From an uncultured Acidobacteriia bacterium (lineage in GTDB: Bacteria > Acidobacteriota > Terriglobia > Bryobacterales > Bryobacteraceae), in NCBI GenBank assembly GCA_903907865.1, contig CAIVPR010000165.1, forward strand, positions 1-59,713: a stretch of 59,713 nucleotides of DNA. Reading direction: 5' to 3'. Positions 11,785-59,713 of the stretch are shown here, piece after piece. The notes under the pieces were generated by a model. That model made no database searches, was not told the DNA's origin, and saw only the letters and a program-made list of their open reading frames with translations. The position numbers and the translations under genes were made by a program. How positions within the stretch are numbered: the stretch's first letter is position 1; every line of letters begins with the position of its first letter.

Positions 11785-12087
11785 TTAAACCACGGGAACA
11801 CGCTCCAAATCTTTGAGCCGAGGCAAAGCATCCAACGCGTTCCCCATGTTCCGTTGCGCGACCCGCAGGTCATAGATGCTCTGCAGGTTCAGCCAGAATG
11901 CCGCACTCGTGCCGAAGAAATGGGCGAGTCTTAGCGCGGTGTCACCCGTGATCCTGCGTTGGCCGTTCAGGATCGCGGTGACACGGTTGGTGGGAACCCC
12001 CAAGCTGCGGGCGAACGCGGCTGCGCTCATGCCTAACGCTGTCAGTTCCTCAATCAAATGCTCACCCGGGTGAATCTCAATCAACAT
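11785..12087 (-). CDS. higA: HigA family antitoxin
   Basis: The 100-residue XRE antitoxin begins with the typical IHPGEHLIEELTALGMSAAAF and has a helix-turn-helix (FARSLGVPTNRVTAILNGQR). The tail LRLAHFFGTSAAFWLNLQS is the standard HigA dimer region. It should neutralise the toxin encoded immediately upstream and repress the pair's promoter. The toxin-first gene order is the higBA order. Confidence 0.9.
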   Translation of the reverse strand: MLIEIHPGEHLIEELTALGMSAAAFARSLGVPTNRVTAILNGQRRITGDTALRLAHFFGTSAAFWLNLQSIYDLRVAQRNMGNALDALPRLKDLERVPVV

Positions 12088-12108
12088 CGTGCCTCCCTTA
12101 CATTGCCC

Positions 12109-12393
12109 CTATTGGTAGTCGACTATCTCCACATTCGATGGACCATCCGACCCTTCGGGCCATTCGAAACAAATCCGCCACCGGTCGTTGATCCGAATGC
12201 TGAACTGGCCTTTCCGATCACCGCTCAATGACTCGAATCGATTGCCCGGAAGCTGCGATACGTCTCTCACGGAGCTTGCAGCCTCCAGACGATCCAGTTT
12301 CAACCGTGCCTGCCGTTCGATGCCGGAAAAGTCCCGGACGCGTTCGCCCGTCGCGAAGTCCCTCGTACGTTTGCCCCGGTAGCCGAGTATCAA
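12109..12393 (-). CDS. higB: HigB/RelE-type toxin
   Basis: A 94-residue ribosome-dependent mRNA-cleaving toxin of the HigB group: KRTRDFATGERVRDF, then LDRLEAASSVRDVSQLPGNR, and the C-terminal FSIRINDRWRICFEW...VEIVDYQ strands with the expected basic and aromatic residues. It ends 21 bases before higA. The start is a TTG at 12391-12393 that sits five bases after a TATGCT box, so the transcript is probably leaderless. Confidence 0.85.
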   Translation of the reverse strand: MILGYRGKRTRDFATGERVRDFSGIERQARLKLDRLEAASSVRDVSQLPGNRFESLSGDRKGQFSIRINDRWRICFEWPEGSDGPSNVEIVDYQ

Positions 12394-51496: not shown

Positions 51497-51882
51497 TCAC
51501 CACACGCGGCGCACCGCGTAGGCGTCAAATATCGTTTCGTTGCTAATCAAAGGAATATTTTCAGCCAGTGCCTGGGCAATCAGCATCCGGTCAAACGGAT
51601 CTTTGTGCGGCCCGGGCAATTGTCCCGCGCGAATTCCGTGATCCACCGAAACCGCGAGTCGCTCGAAACGTTCCGTCTCAGCCAAGCTTCGAAAACGGCC
51701 ACCAGTTCGACCGCAGTCGGAAGTCGGCCGATCCGGACCTTCGTCGCGATCTCCCACGCCGAAGCCGCGCTGACCACCATCGTATTCGCCGGGTTCGAAA
51801 TCAGGCGGATCGCCGCCGCCGACAACGCCGGATCGGCCGCCAACCACCACAAGAGCGCGTGTGTGTCCAACAAGGCACGCAC
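51497..51882 (-). pseudogene. vapC-type PIN toxin broken by a one-base frameshift
   Basis: From a GTG at 51880-51882 the frame reads VRALLDTHALLWWLAADPA, then VSAASAWEIATKVRIGRLPT and VAVFEAWL, all PIN-domain sequence. It then leaves frame. The other minus frame continues from about 51683 with ETERFERLAVSVDHGIRAGQ, KDPFDRMLIAQALAENIPL and YAVRRVW. The two parts together span 386 bases, one short of a 128-residue VapC. The toxin is therefore inactive, or one base is missing from the sequence. Confidence 0.7.
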
Positions 51883-51889
51883 CCGGACT

Positions 51890-52120
51890 CTACTCCCATC
51901 CGACCAGTTCTTCGGCGGGGAGAGGCTCAAAGAACTCTGGGCCAACCGACAGCACCCCCTTCAATGCCCCTGGCTGCCGAGCCCCTTTGACCTCGCCGAT
52001 CGCAACCAGACGGGCCACCGGCGTGGGTCCGCGCGAAATAATCACCTCTTCGCCGTCAGCTGCAACCTGAATCAACCGCGAGAGTTGGGTCTTGGCTTCG
52101 TGAATCGTGACTTGCTTCAT
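51890..52120 (-). CDS. Phd/VapB-type antitoxin
   Basis: A 76-residue antitoxin: MKQVTIHEAKTQLSRLIQVA is the Phd-fold DNA-binding start, VVIISRGPTPVARLVAI-type strand follows (EEVIISRGPTPVARLVAIGE) and the acidic C-terminus FFEPLPAEELVGWE binds the toxin groove. The toxin start lies eight bases downstream. The antitoxin seems intact although the toxin is frame-shifted. Confidence 0.87.
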   Translation of the reverse strand: MKQVTIHEAKTQLSRLIQVAADGEEVIISRGPTPVARLVAIGEVKGARQPGALKGVLSVGPEFFEPLPAEELVGWE

Positions 52121-52500: not shown

Positions 52501-54543
52501 TCAGCCTGTTCCAATTGACCCGGGTGCCGCCTTCTTGGGCACCTCAACGGGTGGAGGAATCAACCGCAACCATTTTTCATCCGGTGGGGTCTGCACGTTC
52601 ACTCCCTCCTTTCGCAACTGCGCGACCTCATCCTCTTTCAGAGAGGTGAAGATGATCGTTTGAAACCGGGCGTTGCGCGCAAGTTGCTTGCTGAGGAACT
52701 CAAGGAACCGGTTGCGGTGCCCCGGGTCGGGATTCTGTTGCAACGGTTCGTCGAGAATAACGATGCCGGGATGCAGCCCACCGCTGCTCGTCCCTGTAGC
52801 AGCCAGAGCCAATGCATATGCAGTCGTCAACCGTGAATGGTCGCTGGCCGAACCGAGAGACCGCAGTCGCCGATTTGCCAGATAGGGCACGTATTGCTCG
52901 TCGAGCGTCAACAAGCTCGCCGTACCTTCCCGTACCTCGCTGTGCACGAGTTCAACGAGGTACCTCCCCAAGGCATCAAGAAACGCCTGGCGACGTCCGT
53001 TAAGGCTCGCCGGACCGGACTCACGGCCAGACACAACCCGTGCATCCGCCACCCAACGATCAATCTCCTTTTGAAGCTCCTCGATCTCAGCGATGCTAGC
53101 CCGCGCTCTCTCGGTCTCCCGCTCTAATGCGGAGAGTTCGCCAACAATCCGGGCAACTTGTTCGCGTTCGGCTCCAACCGCAACCGTCACATTCATCAAC
53201 ACGCGCTCGGCCTCACGCAGTTCGGTATCGAGATTCATCATCGTGGCCTGCGAGGCTCGGAGTTCCGACTCGATCGACCGCGAATTGCTCCTCATCATGT
53301 CACGATCCCGCTTCAGAGCCTCGATATGCTTTCTGATCGACTCCGCCGACTGGTCGGTCAATCCAAACGTCACGGGATCAAGGTCACGATGGCAAGTCGG
53401 GCACTCGACATGATCCAGCCTCCCAACCCCAGTCTCTTTGAGCCGCAAGAGATCGCTCGCCGACTGTATCCGGTGGTCAAGACTACCAATCAACTCGTCG
53501 GCCTGTTCCTTCTGGATTCGCAACGTGCTGAGCGACTCATTCAGCTTATGGCGGCTCCGCTTCAATTCTATGGCGTTCTGGGATACCTCCGCCGGAGCCG
53601 ACCTATTGTGACGGTCGGCTCCAAACATTGTAAGTGCCGTCCGAAGGGTGTCGGCGCGGATGGAAAGATTGCCGATTCTCGCCGAAAGATCTACATTCGC
53701 GTCATCCTTGAGCGCTACACGCAAGTTGCGCCGCGTCCAACGCTTGACGATCTCTTCCAGCGTCCCGCCACCGGTCCAATCGAGACGCCAATCTCGGCGT
53801 TCTGCCATGTTGGCAACGCGCTCGGCGATGCTGCGTGCAAGCTCACGCAGTGCGCTCTGCCGCTGTGTACTTTGGCGTTGTGCGACTCGCGCCCGAATCG
53901 CATCGGTGGATCCAAGCAAATACTCCACCGCAATTTCCTTGATCTCTAACTGGCCGTAGCGGCCGATCTGCTGTGCCTGAATTTCCGCCCACCCTTCTGT
54001 CTGGTCCACATAGAATGAAAGCACAAGGTTCTCAAGATACACTTCCGAGGCTGGCCCCTTGAACGTTGCGACCTCGACGCGTGGCCACGTGAGCCACTCA
54101 AGAAGGAACCGTTGCAAGCCGCCTGTCTCGTCTCTCATCGTGCCGTGCCGAGCGACAAGACGGCTTTCCCGTGCCGTCCCTTCTGCGTGCTCGGTCACAC
54201 GAACATCAACGACATCACCCTTGATCGACCGGCAGAGCCCCAATCTGCGACCATCGCCATGAATCAGCTCGATCTCGCCCTCGGACGACAGCACCTCCGT
54301 ATAGCTGCCGTCGGGCAGCTTCAAGCGTTCAAGGACAGCCTGCGGGAAGCAGCTGGCATCATTGCCGAATATCCCAAAGATCGGTTCGACGCCCAAGCAC
54401 CATGCGACCGTTTTCGCTGCTAGCGATTTGCCAAAGGCGTTGTCTGCAGAGATGATTTGCAGCCCGTCCGGAAACTCCAGCTTTCCACCAAACGGCCCGG
54501 CTGCCGATTGCCCCCTTACGGCAATGAATGAGAGGCGAATCAC
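52501..54543 (-). CDS. ABC-3C system SMC-like ATPase with zinc hook
   Basis: A 680-residue ABC/SMC-type ATPase. The Walker A loop is ADNAFGKSLAAK (33-44, a GKS loop with Ala/Asn in place of the usual glycines). Two coiled-coil arms (about 215-375 and 395-560) flank a hook CPTCHRDLDP with Cys381 and Cys384, as in Rad50. The head closes with the signature-like SLGSASDHSRLTTAYALAL and Walker B GIVILDEPLQQNPDPGHRNR. It starts at a GTG overlapping the middle-component stop (GTGA). In ABC-three-component systems this protein is thought to sense or handle DNA and license the effector. It is not a repair-complex Rad50, since no nuclease SbcD partner is present. Confidence 0.82.
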   Translation of the reverse strand: MIRLSFIAVRGQSAAGPFGGKLEFPDGLQIISADNAFGKSLAAKTVAWCLGVEPIFGIFGNDASCFPQAVLERLKLPDGSYTEVLSSEGEIELIHGDGRRLGLCRSIKGDVVDVRVTEHAEGTARESRLVARHGTMRDETGGLQRFLLEWLTWPRVEVATFKGPASEVYLENLVLSFYVDQTEGWAEIQAQQIGRYGQLEIKEIAVEYLLGSTDAIRARVAQRQSTQRQSALRELARSIAERVANMAERRDWRLDWTGGGTLEEIVKRWTRRNLRVALKDDANVDLSARIGNLSIRADTLRTALTMFGADRHNRSAPAEVSQNAIELKRSRHKLNESLSTLRIQKEQADELIGSLDHRIQSASDLLRLKETGVGRLDHVECPTCHRDLDPVTFGLTDQSAESIRKHIEALKRDRDMMRSNSRSIESELRASQATMMNLDTELREAERVLMNVTVAVGAEREQVARIVGELSALERETERARASIAEIEELQKEIDRWVADARVVSGRESGPASLNGRRQAFLDALGRYLVELVHSEVREGTASLLTLDEQYVPYLANRRLRSLGSASDHSRLTTAYALALAATGTSSGGLHPGIVILDEPLQQNPDPGHRNRFLEFLSKQLARNARFQTIIFTSLKEDEVAQLRKEGVNVQTPPDEKWLRLIPPPVEVPKKAAPGSIGTG

Positions 54544-55066
54544 ATGCCCTCCAGCATGCGGACGGTCACGCGGACGTGGGCCAGTTCCTCCAAGGTCCGC
54601 CGTTCCGCTATAAAGAGGCTGCCACCTACCGCCGCTGTGTAGATCTTGGCCAAAAGCCCCGCATTGCTGCCAGCCCCAAGATGCGCCCCCATCCATTCCA
54701 GCGCACCACGAGCGACCAGAAGCGCCACCACGGAATCGTACATTTGATCCCCGAGAAACCCGCGTCGAAGCTCGTGGGCAGCAAACGATGTCCCGTCGCC
54801 CCGATGGCGCTCCAAGATCTGATAACCGGCAACAGGCGGGGCCGGATCGCGACGAACTGCAGAAGCTTCAGCTTTGTGGCGTGAATGCGACGTCCAGTCA
54901 AAAGCTCCCCCTTGGCGTGCAGTTCAAATGCGGCTGCGATCACAAAGACCCGGCAATCGAGATCATATATTGCTGAAGGGACTAGGCGCTCTGGTCGCAC
55001 CCGGGGCTGGGCGTGGCTCGACTGCAGCAAAGCCGACAGGGTCTCGATTGCCGACGGTTCACGCAT
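54540..55066 (-). pseudogene. ABC-3C middle component, frame-shifted by one base
   Basis: From ATG 55066, which overlaps the effector stop by eight bases, the frame reads MREPSAIETLSALLQSSHAQ, then FVIAAAFELHAKGEL and KLKLLQFVAIRPRLLPVI, typical of a small helical middle component. A second minus frame carries the rest: TSFAAHELRRGFLGDQMYDS, NAGLLAKIYTAAVGGSLF and RVTVRMLEGM, ending in the stop that overlaps the ATPase GTG. The span is 527 bases, one short of 176 codons. A lost G in the GGGG run (plus-strand 54799-54802) would join the frames as WSAIGGDGTSF. Both outer ends look genuine, so the break is recent or a sequence error. Confidence 0.65.
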
Positions 55067-56048
55067 GTGCCGGGGCCTCCCAGCCGATGGGGCATTCGCC
55101 AATTAATCTGGCGACCTCGCCGGAGCTGATTGTATCGAGAACTGCGGGGCCGTAAGCTCCCTTAAAGTCCGGGGCCAACACGTCGGCCGCAATATCCTGC
55201 GCCCGACCCAATTCCGCCCACGGCCTATCCGAGGCAATCATCAGTTGCACCACCCTTTGCAGGATTCGGCGACGATCATCCTCAAGTGCTTTGTGCAACG
55301 TCGGCAGAGTTCCATCGAGCTCCTGCTCGAACGCAAGCGCCATGCGCCAATCAGACAGAAACTGCTGTCTGAGCCTTGCTATGCCTGGTGCCTGATGCGC
55401 CGGGCAGATCTTGCCCAACGAATTCATCTTGGCGTCGAAATCAGAAGGATTCTCTATTGCGACGCGTTCGGCTGCACTCTGCAACCCCTTCAGAAACCCG
55501 GCTTGCCGAGACCGGAAAATTGTAATCTCATCAACCGCATACCGCGCAGCGAGTTCCTTTGGCCCCCAGACAACGACAGACGCGCTTGGATCCACGTACC
55601 TGCAGGTGCTAGCTTCTCGGTATTTCTTGAACGCCGTGGCGATGGGAGCGAGAATCCGATGACTCTCGAACCAGTTGACGATCAGCTTGATGTGCTTGAG
55701 GGTCGTCCCGCTCGGCAGGATTGTCGCAAGCTCCTTGTTCTGAACCTGCACGATTTTCCTATCGTGCAGGTCGAGCTCGAAGAGCTTGCGCAGATCGCTC
55801 TTGAACTTTTCGACAATGTCTGCAGTGAGGTCCTTCGCGGGCTTGAAACTGTCGTATTCCGGCCCGTAGCAACAATAAGCGTGTTCGTAGTCGTGTGAGA
55901 GGCCATCGAGTCCCCCGTCGCCGTGGGGTTTCCGAGGGACCTCCTGAAAGCTGAGAATCGCAGTCCCCAGGCGAGCGCACACTTCGGACTGAAAGTCGTC
56001 CCCCGTGAGCTGGGTCAGGAAGCGGGCGTATTGATCGCTCAAAGCCAT
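55059..56048 (-). CDS. ABC-3C effector with restriction-endonuclease-like N-terminal domain
   Basis: A 329-residue protein. Residues 1-70 look like a restriction-endonuclease fold: LTGDDFQSEVCARLGTAIL, then KPHGDGGLDGLS with Asp44/Asp48 and AYCCYGPEYDS, where a Gln or Lys is usual. A middle helical part has KSDLRKLFELDLHDRKIVQV and LIVNWFESHRILAPIATAF. The C-terminal third (LRQQFLSDWRMALAFEQELD, RAQDIAADVLAPDFKGAYGP, IGECPIGW) would be the ABC-3C C-terminal domain that docks to the ATPase. The ATG at 56046-56048 is preferred to the upstream TTG at 56063. The effector probably cuts DNA or RNA during phage attack, inferred from system architecture. Confidence 0.75.
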   Translation of the reverse strand: MALSDQYARFLTQLTGDDFQSEVCARLGTAILSFQEVPRKPHGDGGLDGLSHDYEHAYCCYGPEYDSFKPAKDLTADIVEKFKSDLRKLFELDLHDRKIVQVQNKELATILPSGTTLKHIKLIVNWFESHRILAPIATAFKKYREASTCRYVDPSASVVVWGPKELAARYAVDEITIFRSRQAGFLKGLQSAAERVAIENPSDFDAKMNSLGKICPAHQAPGIARLRQQFLSDWRMALAFEQELDGTLPTLHKALEDDRRRILQRVVQLMIASDRPWAELGRAQDIAADVLAPDFKGAYGPAVLDTISSGEVARLIGECPIGWEAPAHA

Positions 56049-56297
56049 GTTGTCGGCTGGCAAAATATCGTCAGATCTTGCGAAACAGCAAGTGTATCAG
56101 AGGCAGCGGCCTTGGACAGCCCGACGTGGGTACCGCAAACCCGCTGGCCCGGCCCCGGCTCGTCCTGCCAAGCTGGGACCCCTCCGGCTGCCAGTGGCAC
56201 AAATCCCCGGAGCCCCCTCCCCCCTCCAATTCGCCAGATCCTTACACCACCCACCCGCATTGAACTTGCCGCCGATTTGCGATAGTCTATTAGGCGG
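56049..56297. promoter_or_regulatory. divergent region between the ABC-3C operon and the kinase gene
   Basis: On the plus strand GATAGT (56281-56286), preceded by TGC, is an extended -10-like box 11 bases before the kinase ATG. On the minus strand GATATT (56070-56065) may be the -10 of the effector gene. No operator palindrome is clear. Confidence 0.35.
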
Positions 56298-58787
56298 ATG
56301 CGACTCGGGCTGCAAACAATCTGCTGGGGGGACCGACTCGAGAAGAAGCATTGGCCCGAATTGCTCCCCCTCATCCGCGACGCTGGCTACGAAGGCATCG
56401 AAGTTTTCCAGCATCCAAAAGACCTTCCAGACTACCCGGAGCTCGCCGAGCTTTGCCGCGCGAACAGCCTGGAACTTCTTGGATTTTCCGGCGGCGACCT
56501 CCCCCGCCGACTCCGCTACCTCAGGGGCGACAACTGGGAGTCGGTCCCCAAACCCGCGCAGGAGCCTTTTCTATACGTGGAGTCGGAACAGGAGGACTCC
56601 TTCGCCGGGGCGCTCGACGCCGGTTTCCGCCTAGCGCTCCACTACCACCACCTCAGCACTCTCCGAACCGTGGACCAGGCGTTGGCGACGCTCAAAGGTG
56701 ACGAGCGCTTGTGGTGGCTCCCCGACACCGCCCACCTGTTCATCAGCCGCCAACAGCCCGACGCCCTAATCAAGCTCTTGACTGATCCCGACTTGGTGCC
56801 GCGTACCTGCGCCATCCACCTGAAGGATTGGTCTGCGACGTTCGGGAGGTTCTCGCAGAGCTACGCCCGCGGCTTTTGCATGCCGGGCGAGGGCGATGTG
56901 AAACTGGAGACGGTAGTCCAGGCTTTACAGAAGGATCTAGGCACCCGCGATCTGTGGGCAATCGTGGAACTTGACACCACCGAGGGGGACGGGGAGGATG
57001 TCGCGAGGGCTGGGGAGACCGTTCTAGGGTGGCTGAAGAAGCCACTGTCCAAGAACCGCAAACCATTCACCGTTCCGGGCAACGCCGAAGACCAGCCTTT
57101 GCCCGGTATTGCCGGAAAGCTCCTCCAGTTGGCTGCTGTCCGCACGGAAGGGTTCTTTGATGCCGTGGCGAAACAGGTTCGAACCGAGTTCCCGGCGGAG
57201 GAGGTATTCCTGTGTGGGGTATTGACCGAACAGGTCCTGGCTACCGTTCGAGGCTGGGATCCCCGGCCAAGCAAACATACAGCGGAATCCAAAACGAGTC
57301 GGGACTTGGCAAAGGGGATCGGCAAGGCGGCACTGAAAACGAGGACCTTCTCTCTCGACTTGAAACACAAGGCTGCTGCGCTCCCTGTCTTCAACTGCTT
57401 CAATCCCCACGCCGTTCGACACGTTCTTGTCTTCCGCTGGGCTGAGGGCCTGACCGAGGCTGAAGTGGGGGAGAAATACAATCGACCAGACTTGGCCAAG
57501 GCCTTGGCAATGGCCGTTGATACCCACATCGGCCACAGATGCAGGGTCATTGCGCTTCGCGCCGGTCGCGTCGCGGCCACCAAGGATACCCGTCGGCACG
57601 TCCTGGACGGAGTCGCAAAACTGATCCACGACGAACTCAAGTGCGACGGCGTCTCGGTCTTTGTTGTCAATGGTGCGAGGGATAGGCTGCTCGAAGGTGG
57701 TTCAACCGGTTTGGAGTGGCAAGACGCGAACAAACCATACTACGGGTTCGGGCAGGGCAAGACGGGCAGGGTGGCGAAGGACCGATCCTATTCGATCTAC
57801 TACCACAACGCGGAGAACGCTCGCGATGAATCGACGGCACCATGTAGCTGGGAAAAGGATGTAAAGGACAGTAGCATCGACAGCGTCCTAGCCACGGCGT
57901 TCTTTGGCCAGCATGAGGAAGTTGCTGGCGTCGTGCGCTGCAGAAATCCTCACGATCACACCAACGTCCTTTACTTTTCCGAAGACGATCTAGCGCTCGT
58001 GGAAGCCGCCATGCTGGCAGTCCAGCCCGAACTGGAGACTTTTGCCCAGTACGAGACGGCAAGCACCGGCCACACGGCTCTTGTGCACGAGATTCGTCAA
58101 CCAATCTATGCCATTCGAGGGGCGGTGGGACGCACCAAATGGCAGATCAAGAACTACGTTTGCTCGGACGCCGCGACGCAGAGGCCGGTCCACTATCTGG
58201 ATTCGGTCAACACCTATCTCGATATCATCAATGAGCAAGCGACACAGTACAAATACTTCGTGGACCTGGTTCTGCACTCGCCCCACCTCGAACTCCGCCC
58301 AACGAAGTTCTTCGCTGATATTGTGGCACCTGCCGTCGATTCCTTTTACCCTCGATTTCAGAACGAGTCGCTGCCGGTCCGCAACGTATACTACGGCGAC
58401 GAAGAGATGTGGCGCCTAGTACCTTGGGTCATGGTCGACAAGAGGAGTATGTTCCAGGTCGTATTCAATCTGCTGAGCAATGCCACTAAGTACCGCAAGC
58501 CCGATCCCAATGATTTCGGAATCCGCATATGGGGGCAGCGCGACGCACGGGGAGCGGTAATCCATTTCGAGGACAATGGGATCGGAATACCCTTCGACCA
58601 GAGGGATCGCGTTTTTGCGCGCGGTGGGCGAATCGTGGATGATTCATCGCGGGACACGATTCCCGGCTTTGGGATCGGACTTTGGGTCGCAAGAAGCATC
58701 GTCGAAGCTCATGGGGGTACGATTGACTTGACCGGTTACGGTAGCCCGACCCGGTTCACGATAAGACTGCCGGAACGCCGGGGATAA
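56298..58787 (+). CDS. TIM-barrel sugar-isomerase-like domain fused to GAF-type sensor and histidine kinase
   Basis: An 829-residue cytosolic protein with no membrane segment. Residues 1-250 are a xylose-isomerase-like/AP-endonuclease-2 barrel: RLGLQTICWGDR, IEVFQHP, LALHYHHLSTL, WLPDTAHLF (Asp143), AIHLKDWS (His174), PGEGDVKLE and VELDTTEG (Glu224), so the metal ligands are kept. Residues about 275-560 look like two GAF-type domains. The kinase core has His597 in LVHEIRQPIYAIRG, the N-box VVFNLLSNATKY, DNGIGIPF and GFGIGLWVARSI. A barrel as input domain on a kinase suggests sensing of a sugar-like molecule or a catalytic input. A receiver gene follows 13 bases later. Confidence 0.85.
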   Translation: MRLGLQTICWGDRLEKKHWPELLPLIRDAGYEGIEVFQHPKDLPDYPELAELCRANSLELLGFSGGDLPRRLRYLRGDNWESVPKPAQEPFLYVESEQEDSFAGALDAGFRLALHYHHLSTLRTVDQALATLKGDERLWWLPDTAHLFISRQQPDALIKLLTDPDLVPRTCAIHLKDWSATFGRFSQSYARGFCMPGEGDVKLETVVQALQKDLGTRDLWAIVELDTTEGDGEDVARAGETVLGWLKKPLSKNRKPFTVPGNAEDQPLPGIAGKLLQLAAVRTEGFFDAVAKQVRTEFPAEEVFLCGVLTEQVLATVRGWDPRPSKHTAESKTSRDLAKGIGKAALKTRTFSLDLKHKAAALPVFNCFNPHAVRHVLVFRWAEGLTEAEVGEKYNRPDLAKALAMAVDTHIGHRCRVIALRAGRVAATKDTRRHVLDGVAKLIHDELKCDGVSVFVVNGARDRLLEGGSTGLEWQDANKPYYGFGQGKTGRVAKDRSYSIYYHNAENARDESTAPCSWEKDVKDSSIDSVLATAFFGQHEEVAGVVRCRNPHDHTNVLYFSEDDLALVEAAMLAVQPELETFAQYETASTGHTALVHEIRQPIYAIRGAVGRTKWQIKNYVCSDAATQRPVHYLDSVNTYLDIINEQATQYKYFVDLVLHSPHLELRPTKFFADIVAPAVDSFYPRFQNESLPVRNVYYGDEEMWRLVPWVMVDKRSMFQVVFNLLSNATKYRKPDPNDFGIRIWGQRDARGAVIHFEDNGIGIPFDQRDRVFARGGRIVDDSSRDTIPGFGIGLWVARSIVEAHGGTIDLTGYGSPTRFTIRLPERRG

Positions 58788-58800
58788 GGATATTTTGGAA

Positions 58801-59252
58801 TGATTCTACTCGTAGACGACGACTTGGGTTCAACCCGGCACTGGATAGGCTTGATCGAGGATGCTCTGAAGCAGCCTGTCCGCCGGACCGACAAAGTCCA
58901 GATTGCGTATCGCGAAGCCGCGGAACAATCAACGCGCCTCATCGCGAACGGTACCCGCGACGGAATGTTCAAACTTGCCATTCTGGATGTCATGATGCGG
59001 GCACCGGGTGAGAACGAGTGGGTGCCGCACTCCCAAGGAGGCGCAATCACCGGCCTCGTATTGGCACAACGCCTCCGCGCGCTTCGCGGGTTCGAGAAAA
59101 TCCCCATCATTTTTCTGACAGCGCAGTCGGACGAGTCGGTAGTCTGGGACCTGAAGGAGTTTCCTCAGCCCAGCGCCAACTTCAACAAGGGCTCAGTCAT
59201 GCCGGACGATCTGTTGGACCAGATTCGGGAGTTCCTGCGGCTTCAGCCGTAG
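58801..59252 (+). CDS. single-domain response regulator
   Basis: A 150-residue receiver: acidic triad ILLVDDDLG (Asp6-8), phosphoacceptor Asp63 in LAILDVMMRAPG, Thr in IFLTAQSDES and Lys in NFNKGSVMPDD. There is no output domain, so signalling must pass by protein contact. The loop after Asp63 (GENEWVPHSQGGAITGLV) is longer than usual. GATATTTTGGA before the ATG and the 13-base gap indicate an operon with the fused kinase. Confidence 0.88.
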
Positions 59253-59547
59253 GTCGTGGTTCCTGCCACTGCCGCGTGCGCCGGAAAATCCGGACCAGCT
59301 CCGCGCTCCATGCAGCGATATCGACAGCATCAACCCGCGTAGCTGCCCCAACATACATGGAGTCCAGTTCTGCGGTCAATTTGCCGCGACGTCGAATTGC
59401 ATCCAGCAACGCGTTATGCTGTTCGCCAGCAGCCTCCAAGAACGAACAGCCTGCGGCTTGGAACGTGGCAATCCTCGCTTGCGCCGCCTGCAGCTCTACT
59501 AGTCCAATCCACGGTGATGCCGTTGACCTTTCCAGTGCTGTGACCAA
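59197..59547 (-). CDS. hypothetical protein, perhaps 5'-truncated
   Basis: A minus-strand frame of 116 residues from a TTG (59545-59547): VTALERSTASPWIGLVELQA, then FLEAAGEQHNALLDAIRRRG, SMYVGAATRVDAVDIAAWS and RIFRRTRQWQEP. The frame stays open upstream to about 59605, with AQELRALLLV, so the true 5' end may have been cut by the sequence at 59572. The helical, Ala-rich composition could be a real gene, but the last 56 bases overlap the receiver gene in opposite orientation. No family is recognised. Confidence 0.3.
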   Translation of the reverse strand: MVTALERSTASPWIGLVELQAAQARIATFQAAGCSFLEAAGEQHNALLDAIRRRGKLTAELDSMYVGAATRVDAVDIAAWSAELVRIFRRTRQWQEPRPTAEAAGTPESGPTDRPA

Positions 59548-59571
59548 CAGGAGCGCCCGGAGCTCTTGAGC

Positions 59572-59713
59572 TGTGAGGTGGACCCCATCGTATGGACAGT
59601 TTTTGGCCTATCCTTAATGGTGGCGGCTGTTGAACATCAATGGGGGAAGGCGGCATGAGACCGCCATCCACTCCGGCCTTGGCTGGACGCTCGGGTCGCA
59701 TCCCTTGACCAGT
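59572..59713 (+). mobile_element. possible insertion-sequence end at the window edge
   Basis: TGTGAGGTGGACCCCATCGT followed by ATGGACAG resembles terminal repeats of some IS3-type elements (TGTCCA...GGGGTCCA on the reverse strand). The sequence then runs out of the window without a transposase gene, so the call rests on the end motif alone. Confidence 0.25.

Follow-up and report, generated by a model that had tools for sequence, protein, structure and literature searches.

A two-gene signalling locus in which a sugar-isomerase-type barrel is fused to a histidine kinase

What might a histidine kinase sense through a barrel resembling a sugar isomerase, and on what could it act when its partner is a receiver domain alone? 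The question is raised by two adjacent genes in a 59,713-nucleotide stretch of DNA, referred to here as the window, which is contig CAIVPR010000165.1 of the assembly GCA_903907865.1 from an uncultured Acidobacteriia bacterium of the Bryobacteraceae. The first encodes a sensor that begins with a xylose-isomerase-like (beta/alpha)8 barrel, continues through a pair of GAF-type domains and a long helix, and ends in a complete histidine kinase core; the second, separated from it by 12 bases, encodes a lone receiver. The interpretation favoured here, to which a probability of roughly 0.6 is assigned, is that the pair constitutes a mobile two-component system of the cytosol, whose sensor derives from an enzyme and detects a polyol- or keto-sugar-like ligand, and which acts by protein contact; both the ligand and the output are what we infer.

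Recurrence of the fusion and its receiver

The sensor frame is open through 829 codons and the receiver frame through 150, and the same arrangement is found elsewhere. The aligned set comprises 13 loci in 12 genomes (G and L numbers are our handles for genomes and loci), some belonging to the window's own family and others to the phylum of a record titled Chthonomonas (Armatimonadota in the NCBI taxonomy). Eight loci are complete fusions (the window, G086, G140, G757, G758, G759, G737 and G826), while three are cut by contig ends, one in G672 and two in G689, a genome whose contig numbering and coordinates show it to be G671 as well. At G157 there is a barrel with part of a GAF domain, and at G049 an unfused version is present, with a free-standing barrel beside a GAF-kinase gene. 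Directly behind each of the eight complete fusions lies a receiver gene, and G049 too has one next to its separate genes for barrel and kinase; a contig of G689 opens with the end of a kinase, 54% identical to the copy in G086, and then a receiver. A sequence-only reading of the window had proposed that the barrel runs uninterrupted into the GAF regions and kinase, and that the partner, a 150-residue protein without an output domain, is a receiver only; both proposals are borne out, and the domain order that it suggested looking for in other genomes is present in seven further complete proteins.

That reading also named an assembly join as the explanation that would undo the fusion. The window does lie on a draft contig, which ends in a repeat 461 bases past the receiver, but eight complete proteins on separate contigs of eight genomes exclude both chance and such a join, to which we give next to no credence.

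When 300 relatives were searched with residues 1-584, 12 genomes had a match; those in the window's own genome, G086, G157, G049 and G140 proved to be members of the family. A contig search identified six loci with named records: two Acidobacteria metagenome-assembled genomes, two Bryobacterales metagenome-assembled genomes, one record titled Acidimicrobiia and one uncultured Chthonomonas. The Acidimicrobiia-titled record, VFZE01000023.1 (L032), agrees in length and match position with G049:C23, a contig placed in the window's family, such that its public label may be wrong. With a profile of the barrel and first GAF domain, the 257 genomes of the order yielded seven loci in six genomes at E <= 6.6e-69, with the next match at 2.7e-18. 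Application of the same profile to 291 genomes of the Chthonomonas record's phylum gave nine matches at E <= 1e-20. Three of these are stand-alone barrels, and six are family members, namely the contig-cut copy in G672 and five complete fusions with lengths of 807-902 residues.

These genome counts are lower bounds, as the first-pass genome search misses true matches; for instance, a genome search with PF01261 returned 49 matches without the window gene. The window protein alone retrieved no relatives from genome contigs, and a search of the phylum with the alignment recovered only the window's own genome (1/396, with three candidates scored per listed genome). No match was found among viral contigs, and the single plasmid record matched contains an ordinary barrel.

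The domain layout of the sensor is seen in profile searches and structure models. PF01261 (AP_endonuc_2) matches residues 107-238 of the window protein at 37.2 bits (E 3.5e-9) against a cut-off of 31.1, and the cut-off is also passed by L022, L023, L024, L030, L033, L084 and L085. GAF domains are not detected by Pfam in the window protein itself, and are in the complete homologues L022 and L023. A simple hydropathy scan found no transmembrane segments in the sensor. The full-length AlphaFold2 model, calculated from a seven-row alignment of the window and the related loci from the contig search only, has a mean predicted local distance difference test score (pLDDT) of 70.6 and a predicted template modelling score (pTM) of 0.62; all eight barrel strands lie inside residues 2-224, and the kinase core is of low confidence. 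Modelled alone, the barrel attains a pLDDT of 83.4 and a pTM of 0.85. Foldseek with the full protein returned bacteriophytochromes, tandem GAF structures and the kinase HK853, the last also being matched by phmmer at 5.5e-18. The same GAF-GAF-helix-kinase spine is found in soluble GAF histidine kinases of phytochrome-like layout, whereas the sensor family has a sugar-enzyme barrel in front of it.

Residues expected of phosphotransfer are retained in both proteins. H597, N724, N728, D759, G761, G763, G790 and G792, representing the phospho-accepting histidine and the N, G1 and G2 boxes, are kept in all eight rows covering them. Conserved among the aligned receivers are the acidic pair, the aspartate, a threonine or serine and the lysine; behind the phosphorylation motif they show, by eye, an insert that varies in length. 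This set of residues in a lone receiver is shared with single-domain response regulators of the CheY or MrrA type, from which the present receivers differ in their variable insert and in sitting directly behind one dedicated kinase family. The receiver Pfam cut-off is passed by L022, L025, L083, L084 and L100, and missed by L023 and L085. Scans of positions 56000-59713 for promoters and terminators gave no excess over shuffled sequence.

Table 1. Positions of the features discussed; coordinates without a locus prefix refer to the window.
Feature	Position	Strand	Evidence or remark
Sensor, 829 aa: TIM barrel, tandem GAF domains, helix, histidine kinase core	56298..58787	+	Open reading frame (ORF), Pfam, AlphaFold2, alignment
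Xylose-isomerase-like (beta/alpha)8 barrel, residues 1-250	56298..57047	+	PF01261, model, 13-row alignment
Codons of invariant barrel site residues	H115 56640, D143 56724, H146 56733, H174 56817, E224 56967	+	
GAF-type domain 1, residues 271-394	57108..57479	+	AlphaFold2; Foldseek match to tandem-GAF 1ykd
GAF-type domain 2, residues 432-558	57591..57971	+	AlphaFold2; Pfam GAF match above cut-off in the homologues L022, L023
Long helix, residues 562-613, bearing the H-box; H597 at 58086-58088	57981..58136	+	Model, alignment
HATPase_c, residues 714-827	58437..58778	+	Pfam E 8e-20
Lone receiver, 150 aa	58800..59252	+	ORF; motif residues D6, D7, D63, T107, K130
334-aa ORF heading the Lamassu-like operon, divergent from the kinase	55059..56063	-	Effector role guessed from position
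LmuB-like SMC-type ATPase	52501..54696	-	PADLOC LmuB E 1.5e-56; start probably downstream of first ATG
Convergent open frame overlapping the receiver end, cut by the repeat	59197..59572	-	ORF; no significant similarity
Repeat at contig end, probably the end of an insertion sequence	59573..59713	.	8 further occurrences in the genome, some partial, at 99-100% identity; 6 of them at contig starts
Unfused version: barrel, GAF-rich kinase, receiver with extra C-terminal part, RES-domain gene overlapping the receiver	L025:1810-7277		
Kinase/receiver pair as low-G+C insert in G737	L084:7050-10340		33.5% G+C against ~65% for the genome; transporter genes on both sides
P-loop NTPases; behind each, a small membrane protein sharing a glycine-rich motif	L022:3100-6440; L023:9219-12238; L100:777-4027; L101:1-2371		

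The barrel site and its relatives

Six residues of the barrel, H115, D143, H146, H174, E224 and E35, are identical in all 13 rows. In the full-length model, H115 ends strand 5, D143 comes just after strand 6, H174 lies within strand 7 and E224 ends strand 8, with strand ends at 115, 141, 175 and 224. These end positions of strands 5-8, occupied by H115, D143, H174 and E224, are what we take to be the metal-holding places in the sugar epimerases and their superfamily. Judged by the alignment and by strand-end place in the model, the putative metal residues align as the sequence-only reading had supposed; its description of the domain as a sugar-isomerase-type barrel that keeps the residues of a metal site is likewise upheld by the above-threshold PF01261 match, the 13/13 site residues and the (beta/alpha)8 model.

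On sequence and model comparisons, the nearest known barrels appear to be IolE and the sugar 3-epimerases, and not AP endonuclease. A profile of seven barrels searched against the PDB, with ten distinct sequences matched at E <= 0.1, had IolE (3cny) as its best match (E 1.1e-14) and also found sugar isomerases. The fold search was headed by UlaE with zinc (2.8e-8), DgpB-C and sugar 3-epimerases, with template modelling scores (TM-scores) of approximately 0.6. Endonuclease IV is absent both from the ten PDB profile matches and from the 50 fold matches listed. Recognition of abasic nucleic acid, an option raised by the sequence-only reading, or of damaged nucleic acid, in the manner of endonuclease IV, draws on the shared Pfam clan name (AP_endonuc_2); it is not favoured, since the profile and fold matches are instead to IolE and sugar epimerases, and we regard it as highly improbable.

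The sensor barrels share their fold and their D/H/H/E site pattern with IolE (3cny), UlaE and the L-ribulose and D-tagatose 3-epimerases. Unlike these enzymes, the sensor barrel forms the N-terminus of a kinase and has two residues characteristic of the family: Q6, in 12/13 family rows against 0/34 background rows, and W178, in 13/13 against 5/34, one of the five being the family member L070. These family-specific residues suggest a ligand or role other than that of the enzyme relatives. The strand-5 histidine was considered as a hallmark of the sensors and rejected, being present in 30/34 background rows (29/33 without the family member L070); because IolE and most background barrels have it, it is not peculiar to sensors. 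Although IolE is the top PDB profile match, a FastTree phylogeny with midpoint rooting sets the family apart from the 34 background barrels, the 13 family barrels grouping together with the duplicate L070 at a support of 0.70. This support is weak but consistent with a single origin of the barrel family.

Mobility and gene neighbourhoods

The kinase and receiver genes appear to move as a two-gene unit, for which there is one clean insertion. In G737 the pair has a G+C content of 33.5%, while its flanks have 66.2% and 64.9%; the flanking genes, named by eye, encode an ABC ATPase and a permease. These two transporter genes are adjacent in six of the seven loci of five related genomes, with gaps of at most ~50 bases by alignments, whilst at the seventh locus a permease match was not seen; the comparison is based on a family search of 12 genomes, six of which had a match, including G737. 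The G+C content of the cassette is also below that of the flanks in the window, L022, L023, L025 and L085. In the window the values are 58.6% and 62.6%, with the adjoining Lamassu-like operon also at 58.6%. By contrast, the copies in G757-G759, which are near-identical, have a third-position G+C equal to the high level of their neighbours, which speaks against recent transfer there.

In three genomes of the family (G086, G140 and G689), the receiver gene converges on one that encodes a P-loop NTPase, 847-920 residues in length, and behind the NTPase comes a small protein of 159-211 residues with a shared glycine-rich motif; G689 has a second NTPase and small-protein pair at a contig start and a second barrel gene at a contig end. 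All four NTPases have Walker A and B motifs, and hydropathy places two transmembrane segments between these in both NTPases checked (L022 and L023) and two segments in each of two small proteins checked. Two hydrophobic helices in this position are likewise found in the KAP-family NTPases such as Tmn, described as a KAP-family defence protein with transmembrane helices between Walker A and B (PMC11846954). The linked NTPases differ in being tied to a two-component pair and in lacking matches to the KAP_NTPase Pfam family, their best being AAA_16; PADLOC also gave no match to the two NTPase copies scanned or to the small proteins. A single NTPase query found only G086 among 201 genomes, and a two-row profile found three of the 257 genomes of the order, all of them among the six carriers of the barrel family. 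The chance of this overlap is 7e-6, uncorrected, with two of the three genomes belonging to the same genus and the profile having been made from two of the three.

The window contig stops in its terminal repeat before the position of the NTPase in relatives. The convergent frame that the repeat truncates is positioned like the relatives' NTPase genes, but as a remnant of one it was rejected because it scores no better than shuffled sequences. The numbers of 2000 shuffles reaching its score in local alignment were 794 for L022, 1482 for L100 and 1023 for L023, and in end-free global alignment 205, 1926 and 861 respectively, whereas in the control comparison of L022 with L100 none of 2000 did so in either mode. 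A separate shuffle test of the frame gave 912 and 965 for the C-terminal parts of L022 and L023, and 157 and 1206 for the full proteins.

Divergent from the kinase lies a Lamassu-like operon. Of the Lamassu/ABC-3C components, the composition of which is described in PMC10586767, the LmuB subunit was matched and the ORFs at the LmuA and LmuC positions were not; the 334-residue ORF heading the operon has no Pfam, NCBIfam or PADLOC match. By eye, a GDGGLDG stretch in the first ORF of the operon (52501-56063, minus strand) looks nuclease-like, and its middle component is no clean ORF. Further along the minus strand, two overlapping frames at 51497-51945 read by eye as parts of a VapC-like PIN toxin gene, the splitting of which over two frames makes the gene look frameshifted, and two small adjoining ORFs at 11785-12393 resemble by eye a HigB/HigA toxin-antitoxin pair.

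Elsewhere the surroundings are diverse. A RES-domain gene (PF08808, 3.7e-14) overlaps the receiver gene in G049; Pfam GAAD scores 17.0 at L025:7346-7789, below its cut-off of 23.6. In G757-G759 a regulator that looks NtrC-type by eye is divergent from the pair, and a gene of 475-509 residues lies downstream; in G826 the pair sits, by eye, after a uvrC-like gene, and a gene two places off gives a weak PADLOC match to mad8 (6.3e-7). As the neighbours are not constant, the two-gene pair appears to be the core. From the neighbours read, defence-like or membrane-NTPase genes adjoin the copies in the window, G086, G140, G689 and G049; none was recognised at G737, G757-G759 or G157, and the copy in G672 and the second copy in G689 are cut by contig ends. 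The co-occurrence with defence modules that the sequence-only reading had put forward for checking thus holds in part: a Lamassu-like operon is present in the window and a RES gene in one relative, with no such neighbour recognised beside other copies. Defence is not claimed as a general role for the pair, its neighbours differing from copy to copy.

Proposed mechanism and its significance

Based on established knowledge of PF01261 enzymes and of two-component systems, the barrel would use its metal to bind a ligand resembling a polyol, a keto-sugar or a sugar phosphate, and binding would be relayed along the GAF and helix spine to set autophosphorylation at H597. The phosphoryl group would then pass from H597 to D63 of the receiver, which in its phosphorylated form would act through protein contact. 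The likely contact would be the linked membrane P-loop NTPase in part of the window's family, and in one relative it might be the RES-domain protein.

Several observations weigh against this interpretation. HisKA at the HEIRQP motif of the window protein scores 13.6 bits, below its cut-off of 26.9, as it also falls below in L022 and L023, and the window receiver scores 19.2 bits against a cut-off of 30.2. In G157 there is a barrel with a partial GAF domain and no kinase, and the genes neighbouring the pair vary between loci. The NTPase was not found by the profile in the window's own genome, with three of five candidates scored, nor was it recognised, reading by eye, among the neighbours of the five complete loci of the Armatimonadota group; this implies that it is not a general output.

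The main alternatives concern what the barrel does and what the pair is for. The barrel could still be a working enzyme, a dehydratase or isomerase acting on an inosose- or keto-sugar-like substrate, with the kinase reading turnover or product, which would make the protein bifunctional. The invariance of H115, D143, H174 and E224 in 13/13 aligned sequences would be compatible with catalysis, and the best PDB profile match, IolE, is an enzyme that has the strand-5 histidine too; however, Q6 and W178, as the family's own residues, suggest another ligand or role, and the loci that were read showed no recognisable catabolic partner gene, so we judge retained catalysis to be unlikely. It is also conceivable that the pair is primarily a defence system, sensing an infection signal and releasing through the receiver an effector such as the membrane NTPase, the RES NADase or a Lamassu-like neighbour. 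This could explain the LmuB-like neighbour in the window, the NTPases with two transmembrane helices between Walker A and B like the KAP-family Tmn (PMC11846954), the overlap at G049 between a RES gene and the receiver gene, and the cassettes with G+C below their flanks in the window and five other loci, one of them a clean insertion. It is set against a PADLOC search without matches to the NTPases or small proteins and with none specific to the receiver, which had no match, or to the kinase of the window, for which only its ATPase domain was matched, to PDC-M43B (2.9e-6 and 0.0011). PADLOC on ten further neighbours matched two, namely a superfamily-2 helicase adjacent to L030 (BrxHI at 6.4e-47, but also DruE and others, and hence a general helicase match) and the weak mad8 hit near G826; moreover, the G737 pair is alone inside a transporter operon. 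A primary role in defence seems possible but doubtful.

A narrower proposal concerns the subset with four genes, for the barrel kinase, receiver, NTPase and small membrane protein. We tentatively suggest that these might constitute an undescribed signal-gated membrane system, probably defensive, in which the metal barrel would read a danger signal resembling a sugar or nucleotide and the NTPase would be switched by phosphotransfer via the receiver. Sister versions would act instead on a RES NADase or on some other target in the host.

The mobile cytosolic two-component system preferred here has, with this input domain, no description in open-access full text among the matches listed, most subscription journals and bioRxiv lying outside the scope of the search, in keeping with the view of the sequence-only reading that no standard two-component family is known to have this input domain. 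Searches by term in PMC8195603, PMC7159879, PMC8534201 and PMC9503650 returned no passage on a barrel-kinase fusion; according to PMC7159879, receivers occur among effectors, and histidine kinase domains were not found among the vWA-associated ones. The barrel kinase may be a new kind of sensor, although domain databases may already list the architecture.

If the proposal is correct, an enzyme-derived TIM barrel would join the input domains of histidine kinases, providing a sensor that is chemically testable through its metal and a sugar-like ligand. It would also tie two-component phosphotransfer to a type of membrane NTPase related to phage defence. The mobility of the two genes poses the further question of what use a receiver devoid of output would be in a new host.

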